DNA of 36,114 nt from Sulfurovum sp. (GTDB lineage Bacteria; Campylobacterota; Campylobacteria; Campylobacterales; Sulfurovaceae). The notes beneath the pieces are model-generated. The model was given only the letters and a program-made list of their open reading frames with translations, was not told the DNA's origin and ran no database searches. Below, in pieces: positions 12,460 to 16,421 of the stretch (its first letter is position 1; the number at the start of each line of letters is the position of its first letter). A program made the translations under genes and the position numbers. The stretch covers positions 1 to 36,114 of the forward strand of contig JALWLU010000168.1 of assembly GCA_026996325.1 (NCBI GenBank). The letters are read 5' to 3'.

Positions 12460-12477
12460 AGACATGTTATAATGTCT
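12460..12477 (+). promoter_or_regulatory. Palindrome AGACAT-GTTATA-ATGTCT containing a TATAAT -10 box (12468-12473)
   Basis: Perfect 6-bp arms in the divergent sor/cls intergenic region. Confidence 0.45.
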
Positions 12478-12496
12478 TCAAAAAACGAGGTGTACC

Positions 12497-13903
12497 ATCG
12501 AACTCTCCGGCTGGTCGATATTCGGCTCCTACCTTTTCATACTCTTTGGCGGCATACTTGTCTTTACCGCGCTTGGGCACATCATCTACCAGAAACGCTC
12601 CTCGACAAGTATGATTTCATGGATGCTCTTTATTATCTTCGTGCCCTACATCGCCGCGCCGCTCTATTTTCTCATAGGCATACGCAAACGTGAAAAGCCG
12701 CACCAGAAGGAGATGGCACAGTTTCCGCATATTAAAGAATATGAAGAGTATCACATCTTCGATACCGAACACGCCCTTGCGAACATTCTGCGCAAAAACG
12801 GCATTCCTGCCGCAAGCAGGGCCAACAGTTTCAGGCTGATTACCAACGATGTCGAGGCCTACGAAGCGATGATGGAGGCCATCGAAAGTGCGCAGGAGAG
12901 TATCGAGATCGCCACATACGTTTTCGAGTTCGACGCGATGACGACAAAGATGGTCGAAGCGCTTACCCAAAAGGCACGCATGGGCGTGACCGTGCGATTG
13001 ATGATGGACACGGTCGGCTCTCTGGGTGCATACCTGCGTCCGGGCAGGTTCGACGCACTTAAAAGGGCAGGGGGAGAGGTGGCCTTTTTCCTTCCGATCA
13101 TCAAGCGCCCCTTCCAGAGCTATATCAATCTTCGAAACCACAGGAAGATCTACCTCTTCGACCAGAAGCTGCTGCTCAGCGGCGGTATGAACCTGAGCAA
13201 CGAGTATATGGGACCGCCGGACGGCACGAAGCGCTGGAGTGACCTGATGTATCGCCTTGAGGGGCCGGCAGTGCAGCATTTCCGTTCCATATTTAAGAAC
13301 GACTGGGAGTATGCCACAGGCAAGACCATAGAGCAAAACAGGGCCCTACTGAAGCATTTTGAGGGTGAGAGTCTGGTGCAGGTGGTGCCGTCGGGCCCGG
13401 ATATTCCCAAAGATGCTCTCTATGAGGCGCTTCTCAATGCAATCTACAGCGCCAAAGAGCGCATCTGGATCGTCACGCCGTACTTCGTGCCCGACGAGAA
13501 CATCATACAGGCGCTGGTGATCGCAGCGCACAAAGGGGTGGATGTCAAGCTCATCACCCCGAAGAACTCCGACCATGTGCTCACAGACCTCGTGCGCTCC
13601 TCCTATATGCGCGAGCTCTATGAAAACAGTATAGATGTGGTGCTTTTCGAAGGAGAGATGCTGCATGCAAAGGCGATACTCATCGACAGCCTTGGCGGTA
13701 TGGTGGGCTCACTCAATCTCGATAACCGCAGTCTCTTCCTCAACTACGAAGTGGTCACGTTCGTCTACTCACCGGAGTTCATCGATGATATGGAGCGCTG
13801 GATGAAGAGGCTGATAGCTTCCTCTGTCAGAGGCATGGAGAAGCCTGGAAAGATGCGGGAGGCTTTCGAGAACATCATGAAAGTCTTCGCACCGATGGTG
13901 TAG
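12497..13903 (+). CDS. Cardiolipin synthase (phospholipase D superfamily); first ATG is at 12611 but the conserved frame extends upstream to an ATC at 12497
   Basis: Two PLD motifs: NHRKIYLFDQKLLLSGGMNLSNEY and LHAKAILIDSLGGMVGSLNLDNRS. Upstream in-frame translation IELSGWSIFGSYLFILFGGILVFTALGHIIYQKRSSTSM supplies the typical first TM helix. Confidence 0.9.
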   Translation: MELSGWSIFGSYLFILFGGILVFTALGHIIYQKRSSTSMISWMLFIIFVPYIAAPLYFLIGIRKREKPHQKEMAQFPHIKEYEEYHIFDTEHALANILRKNGIPAASRANSFRLITNDVEAYEAMMEAIESAQESIEIATYVFEFDAMTTKMVEALTQKARMGVTVRLMMDTVGSLGAYLRPGRFDALKRAGGEVAFFLPIIKRPFQSYINLRNHRKIYLFDQKLLLSGGMNLSNEYMGPPDGTKRWSDLMYRLEGPAVQHFRSIFKNDWEYATGKTIEQNRALLKHFEGESLVQVVPSGPDIPKDALYEALLNAIYSAKERIWIVTPYFVPDENIIQALVIAAHKGVDVKLITPKNSDHVLTDLVRSSYMRELYENSIDVVLFEGEMLHAKAILIDSLGGMVGSLNLDNRSLFLNYEVVTFVYSPEFIDDMERWMKRLIASSVRGMEKPGKMREAFENIMKVFAPMV

Positions 13904-13906
13904 CCG

Positions 13907-14635
13907 ATGTTCCAGCCGCAACAGGTACATCATACCCACTGCTGCAGCGAGAGCGCCAATGCTCTGCCGCTTCCCTTTTCGCTGCTCTGCTGGAATGTTT
14001 ACAAGAAAAACAGGGACGATGGACGCTTTGGCGAATTTCTGCAACGTGTCGATGCCGACCTGCTGCTGCTGCAGGAAGCGGAGTTCAGAGACGGCCAGCC
14101 GTGCAGGGTGGAGGGGTACTCCTACGATGCGGCGGCCAACATCACCTTTGGCACATCAAACTTCGGGGTGCTGACCGCAAGCAGGTGCAGGGCACTTGAG
14201 ACAAGAGCCTACCTCTCACAAACTCGTGAACTCTACTTCGCCACCCACAAAAGCCTTCTGCTTAGCCGCTATGCACTTGGGGACGGCAACAGTTTGCTGG
14301 TTGTCAATGTGCACGCCATCAATTTCAGGGAGAACAGCGCCTACAAAAAAGAGAAAGAGCGCATCCTCGACTTTCTGCGAAGCGATACCGGACCGCTCAT
14401 CGTTGCAGGTGACTTCAATGCTTGGAATGCCTCAAGAGGCGAAAAGCTGCTGCAGATCGCCGACTCGCTTGGTCTGAAGCGGGTGCAGCTTGGCAGCAAG
14501 GATGGGGTCAAGTCGATGTTCGGCAATCCGCTTGACTTTATCTTCTACCGCGATTTGAAACTGTTGGCGTGCGATGTGCTCGATGATGGCGGTATCTCCG
14601 ATCACCGGCCGCTTTTGGCGAGGTTTGGGGTTTAG
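13907..14635 (+). CDS. Endonuclease/exonuclease/phosphatase family protein
   Basis: FSLLCWNVYKKN, LLLQEAEF, IVAGDFNAWN, SDHRPLLARF. Confidence 0.9.
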   Translation: MFQPQQVHHTHCCSESANALPLPFSLLCWNVYKKNRDDGRFGEFLQRVDADLLLLQEAEFRDGQPCRVEGYSYDAAANITFGTSNFGVLTASRCRALETRAYLSQTRELYFATHKSLLLSRYALGDGNSLLVVNVHAINFRENSAYKKEKERILDFLRSDTGPLIVAGDFNAWNASRGEKLLQIADSLGLKRVQLGSKDGVKSMFGNPLDFIFYRDLKLLACDVLDDGGISDHRPLLARFGV

Positions 14636-14861: not shown

Positions 14862-16421
14862 TAGTTGACCGTGAACAACCCATAATTTTCAAGATTTTAG
14901 TGTCCGTGAGATTTTTAAAGTCAATCAGATCAAGAGAAGTTGTCTATTTGATTCTTAATGCAACAGTCTGAACCTCCAATTTCTCCATCGACAGCATAAA
15001 AACAAGCCAAGAAAGCATCTTTTGGTATGCTTTCTTGAACTTGTTGTAGATCTTTTTGAGATTGTATCCACAGGCTGCGAGTATGGTATTGATAAGGTTA
15101 CCGTGCAGTCCTTTGAGAAAGTTCCTTCCCATTCTGTGATCCTGCTTGGTATGGGAGAATACCGTCTCAATGGAAGAACGGCGTTTAAGCTGTGGATGCC
15201 TCTTTTTGTTTTTAGAGCTTTCTATGAGTACTTCGGTATTCCCCTGATAGCCATGGCCCCTATAGCCTTTGTCTGCAAAGAGGTAATCGATCGTTTGATC
15301 TGTCAATGCCTTAAGTGATGCTTTTGTGTGTTCCAGTGCCTCTGTGAGTGTATGCCCGTCATAAGGATTTCCTTCATGGGCATCAGCATGCAGAATGAAG
15401 CACTCTTTGGCAGTCGTAACAAATGTTGACTTGTTCCCAAACTCATAGCATTTATGCGCTTTACCTTTGGAGATACAGACGGTAGCGGGTTCATGGAAAC
15501 TGTAGAGTTTGTTTTTGGAGTTTCTCTTCTGTTCAAAGAGCTGTGTACACTGTTTGAGAAGTACTCTGGCATTCATGTCCAGGGGTAACTGTTGTTCCTT
15601 GGACTTTCTCTCTATCTCACGGATTACTCTACCCAGTCTGTGTTTGAGCTTTTTGAGAGTAGCAGCTTTACGTTTAAACTGTTTGGCATGGTTGTAGCGG
15701 GAGTATTTGATAAGCAGTTTTTTCCCGGCTCTAAGATAACTTTGGCGCTGTTTGATACCAAGACGTTTAGCCAGTTTGGAAAGGTGTACGATCCCTTTAT
15801 AGTAAAGTTTGGCATCGGTGGGGTAGGCGATGTTCTTCTCCTATACGGTCGAATCGATGACCGTACACTCGATGCTTTTGGGTTTGAGTATTTTTGTCTT
15901 GAATCCACTTTTGATAGTCTCTTGCAGCAGTTTGTAGAGTTTCCTCTTTTTCAGGCGTTCTCGAAAGCGGCTCATAGAGCTTCTGTCTATAGGAAAGGTG
16001 TGTTGAAACACTTTCTCCCCACAGAAGTACTGGTAGTAGGGATTTTCAACATATGCCCAGACAATACTCTCATCACTGAGATCAAACATATACCGAAGGT
16101 AATGCAATCCTACCATCAGACGAATCGGCTTATTGGGATGTCCAGTTGTGGAGGGATAGGCTTCTGCGAGATCTTCTTCAATTGATTCCCAGTCAATACT
16201 ATCGGCAAGCTGCACCAATGGATGATTTTCATCGATAATGTCAGCCAACTGTTTATGGCTGTCGAACAGTGTGATTTCTTTGGGGTTTTCCTGGATCATA
16301 AAGGCCCTCAAACTACAAGATTTTTTATGGTTACTTTGTACTTTATGGTAGTTTTAGGATAACAAAAAAGGTCTTTATAGCCATTGAACTCGGGGATTGT
16401 TCGGTTGTTCACGGGGAACTA
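14862..16421 (-). mobile_element. IS5-family-like insertion sequence; candidate imperfect terminal inverted repeats 14862-14880 / 16403-16421
   Basis: DDE transposase ORF (disrupted) flanked by TAGTTnnCCGTGAACAACC and its inverse GGTTGTTCACGGnnAACTA (17/19). Exact boundaries uncertain; no convincing target-site duplication. Confidence 0.65.
14944..16311 (-). pseudogene. IS5-like transposase interrupted by one in-frame TAG (complement of 15841-15843)
   Basis: ...KPKSIECTVIDSTV*EKNIAYPTDAKLYYKGIVHLSKLAKRLGIKQRQ...MNARVLLKQC...FADKGYRGHGYQG...RRSSIETVFSHTKQDHRMGRNFLKG...; same frame on both sides of the stop. Confidence 0.88.

Follow-up and report, generated by a model that had tools for sequence, protein, structure and literature searches.

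Cardiolipin synthase of Sulfurovum is probably initiated at a conserved AUC codon

The cardiolipin synthase gene (cls) studied here lies in the window, by which we mean the whole stretch of 36,114 nucleotides analyzed. It belongs to contig C168 of a draft genome (1.84 Mb, 223 contigs, ~85% complete) of the sulfur-oxidizing genus Sulfurovum. Comparison with homologous sequences strongly supports the ATC at position 12497 as the predicted start codon of this gene. We consider it very probable that AUC initiation of cls is genuine, carried out by initiator tRNA on a Shine-Dalgarno (SD) sequence, that it would provide for a low synthesis sensitive to initiation factor IF3, and that it had a single origin in a Sulfurovum clade. 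The parts of the locus are as follows.

12465 to 12473, plus strand: extended -10 promoter element of cls, TGTTATAAT, with TATAAT at 12468 to 12473; the TATAAT is kept in all five closest orthologs
12487 to 12492, plus strand: SD sequence GAGGTG, at an aligned spacing of 6 nt to the ATC; duplex with the anti-SD tail of -7.2 kcal/mol
12497 to 12499, plus strand: putative AUC initiation codon of cls; ATC, ATA or ATT in 29 homologs; codon periodicity starts here
12500 to 12610, plus strand: cls codons 2 to 38, with the first transmembrane helix, a linker and the N-terminal half of PLDc_N
12497 to 13903, plus strand: cls, cardiolipin synthase of 468 amino acids with two PLD domains
12611 to 12613, plus strand: first in-frame ATG (Met39), judged to be an internal methionine and not a start

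According to the original prediction, the cls frame contains no ATG, GTG or TTG between the in-frame TAA at 12470-12472 and the ATG at 12611, a GAGG at 12487-12490 ends 6 nt before the ATC, and the only nearby ATG, at 12472, belongs to another reading frame and overlaps the TATAAT box; all these coordinates were verified. Its reading of the open frame was correct in that the frame is open from 12473, but the residues encoded first are CLQKTRCT, and IELSGWS begins only at 12497. When the ATC is counted as codon 1, the ATG at 12611 is codon 39, and codons 2 to 38 hold the first membrane helix, as had been expected. Since the ATG at 12472 overlaps the TATAAT box, the transcript probably begins downstream of it; judged from the -10 element, transcription probably starts at ~12480, which would leave a 5' leader of ~15 to 20 nt. 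The neighboring upstream gene, which encodes a desulfoferrodoxin domain, is divergently oriented, which excludes a translational coupling of cls to a gene upstream.

The AUC-started protein matched the TIGR04265 (bac_cardiolipin) model with 304.3 bits, as compared to 291.6 bits for the form starting at the ATG at 12611 (cut-off, 290). Matches to PLDc_2 and PLDc were also obtained, whereas PLDc_N (PF13396), covering residues 20 to 61, was matched in the AUC-started protein only. The product is thus of the ClsA type, with TIGR04265 above its curated cut-off, two PLD domains and PLDc_N, and shares this architecture with other ClsA-type cardiolipin synthases.

To establish the conservation of the start, 82 cls homologs were gathered from the genus, the family and the order, and in-frame starts with an SD sequence were sought. 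Starts were assigned by hand from tables of start codons and SD sequences; the assignment was ambiguous for L018, L051 (ATT directly before ATG) and L049 (ATC before ATA), and the start was left unassigned for L082, L121 and L126. An AUH codon (ATC, ATA or ATT) behind an SD sequence was found as start in 29 genes from 28 species-level genomes, namely, ATC in 25, ATA in 3 and ATT in 1, and the aligned SD spacing was nearly always between 4 and 6. The five closest orthologs (80 to 89% protein identity) all have ATC and not ATG at the codon corresponding to 12497. The recurrence in 29 homologs supports one of the options initially put forward, a rare initiation at AUC like that of infC. Together with the strong purifying selection on codons 2 to 38, it rules out another, a truncation of the protein by mutation of ATG to ATC. 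Given that the AUC start has been kept by dozens of relatives, it appears to be a real, selected feature and not a sequencing error.

In a tree computed after removal of the N-terminal columns, the 29 AUH-started genes all fell into one clade of 41 genes, with a support of 100/100 in the careful tree and an SH-aLRT value of 99 in the quick tree. Most genes of this clade are from Sulfurovum, and two belong to a different family of the order. In the remaining 12 members, ATG, GTG or TTG occupies the ATC site or a place within two codons of it, and the ClsA-type homologs outside the clade, unlike the window cls, start with ATG, GTG or TTG wherever a start could be assigned. Parsimony yielded 6 start-codon changes in the tree, for which the simplest history is one gain followed by several returns to a standard start. 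Since the AUH codon is replaced only by ATG, GTG or TTG at or near the same place, it behaves as a start codon and not as an ordinary isoleucine codon. ATC accounts for 86% of the AUH starts, a figure inflated by shared ancestry, as compared to 36% of the isoleucine codons in the same genes, and this was the highest value among 19 isoleucine-rich columns. One genome (G046) contains two cls copies (L023 and L048), which belong to separate branches of the clade; one of them starts with ATT, the other with ATA. Another cls sequence, L052 (G019:C108), whose start reads ATG, gives fragmentary matches interrupted by stop codons and appears to be either a pseudogene or a misassembled gene.

Codon differences were counted over the 15 genome pairs formed by the window genome and its five nearest orthologs. 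In codons 2 to 38, there were 233 synonymous and 42 nonsynonymous codon differences, and the differences per site amounted to 0.081, 0.029 and 0.461 at codon positions 1, 2 and 3, respectively. The corresponding values for the 8 codons upstream of the ATC were 0.267, 0.342 and 0.200, with 8 differences of the synonymous and 53 of the nonsynonymous type. Purifying selection on the cls frame thus sets in at codon 2. In the homologs L042 and L044, a stop codon is located just 4 codons ahead of the ATC, with no standard start in between. The gene combines the absence of a usable upstream standard start, a fixed SD distance across species and coding-type evolution from codon 2, three sequence features of conserved AUH-started genes.

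We also surveyed 1.52 Mb of genome G036 and 0.76 Mb of genome G029, both of which have an AUC-started cls, for other genes of this kind. The 548 orthologous gene pairs were inspected for an AUH codon with an SD sequence, no earlier standard start, and coding-type conservation before the first standard start. Three genes qualified, namely, cls, recO and a gene for a TrkA-C domain protein, with a conserved stretch of 38 to 66 codons. The two genes other than cls are located as follows.

L172, 9912 to 10526, minus strand: recO, with coding conservation over 66 codons ahead of the first standard start
L229, 14296 to 15717, plus strand: gene for a TrkA-C domain protein; AUH start in 8 and ATG or TTG in 25 of 33 readable genomes

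The differences by codon position were 1, 0 and 15 for recO (ATC), which matched NF010483 and RecO_N_2, and 3, 1 and 7 for the TrkA-C gene (ATC). A fourth, doubtful candidate (G036:745736), with ATA and a stretch of 15 codons, showed differences of 1, 1 and 1, and a candidate at G036:935751 was dropped, since all changes in it (6, 0, 0) concern the first codon position. A looser survey without the SD requirement revealed no further convincing case. At L216:4736-5116 (plus strand), a 127-amino-acid protein with no Pfam or NCBIfam match might conceivably start at an ATA that precedes the first ATG by 15 codons.

The recO and TrkA-C starts were read in further genomes by short start-codon patterns, matched by hand to gene positions. 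Among the matches listed, the recO start was ATC in 36, ATT in 1 and ATG in 2 of 39 readable Sulfurovum genomes; recO of the window's own genome (G000:C88:8251, plus strand) starts with ATC. Among the matches listed from outside the genus, the recO start was readable in one genome, G212, where it is GTG. The starts of the TrkA-C gene were more varied, with 5 ATC, 2 ATA, 1 ATT, 20 ATG and 5 TTG among the matches listed from 33 genomes other than that of the window. AUC starts in Sulfurovum are hence rare, at well under 1% of the surveyed genes, yet recurrent and kept. It is conceivable, although doubtful, that this small set (cls, recO, the TrkA-C gene and perhaps more) forms a regulon controlled by IF3 or the state of the ribosome, which, if true, would tie membrane lipid synthesis, DNA repair and ion transport to the stringency of initiation.

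The use of AUC by several unrelated genes of one genus (cls, recO and the TrkA-C gene), as well as the switching of the cls start to and from ATG and TTG, would also be expected if AUC initiation were real and nearly neutral, the lineage simply tolerating AUC through a relaxed discrimination of start codons, with no selection for low output. We regard this as unlikely. Only 3, perhaps 4, of the 548 gene pairs qualified, indicating that AUC is still strongly avoided genome-wide, and recO and cls keep ATC instead of drifting freely. Furthermore, the initiator-type tRNAs carry the normal anticodon: the 1.52 of 2.19 Mb of G036 covered contain two different initiator-type tRNA-Met genes, both with CAU (C1-A72, GGG/CCC anticodon stem), and no AUC-reading initiator tRNA was found in this portion. 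The strength of the SD sequences was compared as well. The median pairing energy was -8.2 kcal/mol for the AUH-started cls genes and -5.9 kcal/mol for the canonically started genes of the same clade (Mann-Whitney p = 0.03, kinship ignored). In three of the canonical genes with strong SD sequences (L015, L017 and L018), these are located 10 to 12 nt from the start. When SD sequences were scored at proper spacing in independent pairs, 3.6 of 5 went in the expected direction and 0 in the opposite one, a sample size at which significance is unreachable. Stronger SD sequences would fit both a compensation for the weak codon and a selection for a set, low output.

A translation from the ATG at 12611 would yield a shortened enzyme and leave the beginning of the frame as an untranslated remnant. 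No standard in-frame start precedes this ATG, which gene callers limited to ATG, GTG and TTG would pick, and the resulting protein still barely passes the TIGR04265 cut-off. However, codons 2 to 38 evolve as coding sequence, a start at 12611 would forfeit the PLDc_N match and the first membrane helix, and no SD-like sequence precedes this ATG. Moreover, sister genes have ATG, GTG or TTG at the place of the ATC, with the YQKR motif following ~30 codons later, and a methionine aligned with Met39 is common in homologs whose ATG start lies far upstream. We therefore consider this start very improbable.

It is also very improbable that ribosomes initiate at the out-of-frame GTG at 12490, or at some other site, and then shift into the cls frame: the window shares this GTG with its nearest relatives, but it sits within the SD sequence itself and is missing in L008 to L014 and most other members, which keep the SD sequence and the ATC, and no conserved slippery site was seen. 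The probability of a sequence error, either in a true ATG codon or in the A6 run at 12480-12485, which with one base fewer would bring the ATG at 12472 into frame, is negligible despite the fragmented draft assembly, since relatives with A7 (L004, L005) or without an ATG at the place of 12472 (L006, L007) keep the ATC in an unchanged frame, that ATG overlaps the -10 box, and ATC occurs in 25 homologs from separate assemblies, in some of them within one contig (G036, L013), so that one error would have to be common to all of them.

Initiation at AUC may be pictured as follows. Because the initiator tRNA anticodon is the normal CAU, AUC must be read with a third-base mismatch, and the tRNA would sit on the codon in this way, assisted in its placement by the GAGGUG SD sequence 6 nt upstream on the very short leader. 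Formylmethionine would probably be inserted at position 1. The weak codon may hold the synthesis of this membrane enzyme low and render it sensitive to IF3, which rejects codons other than AUG, GUG and UUG. The arrangement would have had a single origin, at the root of the Sulfurovum cls clade, and been kept in most lineages, with several reversions to ATG, GTG or TTG.

Precedents exist for such an arrangement. The infC gene starts with ATT in Escherichia coli and ATC in Streptomyces, and Streptomyces sigR has a GTC start that is subject to repression by IF3 and lies behind an extended SD sequence, AGGAGGTG; public genomes misannotate this start (PMC5472188). In vitro, strong third-base pairs are favored by IF3 (PMC10158994). 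Since IF3 rejects third-base mismatches in the infC and sigR systems, cls is probably translated at a low, IF3-sensitive rate; by this analogy, IF3 control is what we best infer for cls. A low expression as the purpose of the rare start appears modestly supported by the SD comparison.

The likeness to infC consists of an AUH start that is evolutionarily kept together with an SD sequence (PMC5472188); the two differ in that cls is another gene and in that the infC codon closes the self-feedback loop of IF3. In Sulfurovum itself, infC starts with TTG behind AGAAGG or a similar sequence in all 30 genomes read (L086 to L115), and an autoregulatory loop of IF3 through an AUH codon is thus absent. 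The IF3 gene was found above the cut-off in 65 of 78 genomes of the genus, including that of the window. Like cls, sigR is a gene outside the translation machinery with an SD sequence and a conserved codon beyond ATG, GTG and TTG; however, this codon is GTC instead of ATC, and IF3 control is experimental for sigR, whereas it is predicted for cls. Another single enzyme gene with a rare start is pcnB of E. coli, which has an AUU start and a low expression; it encodes a different enzyme in a different phylum.

In the literature searched, mostly without subscription papers, AUC starts were not described for cls, for recO or for Sulfurovum. Rare AUH starts define a recognized but very small kind of gene, to which, as far as this literature shows, cls and recO add two new conserved cases. 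The bacterial genes known to retain a start codon other than ATG, GTG and TTG are few, and standard annotation is blind to them; the annotated N termini of cls and recO are therefore probably truncated. As conserved rare starts in ordinary enzyme genes, both represent natural tests of the purpose of such codons. Paired genomes of all prokaryotes could be searched in the same way for codon periodicity ahead of the first standard start.

Downstream of cls, a gene of the endonuclease/exonuclease/phosphatase family (13907 to 14635) starts 3 nt past the cls stop codon and is probably part of one operon with cls. Further downstream, at 14944 to 16311, two neighboring minus-strand ORFs resemble, by eye, the halves of a broken insertion-sequence transposase.
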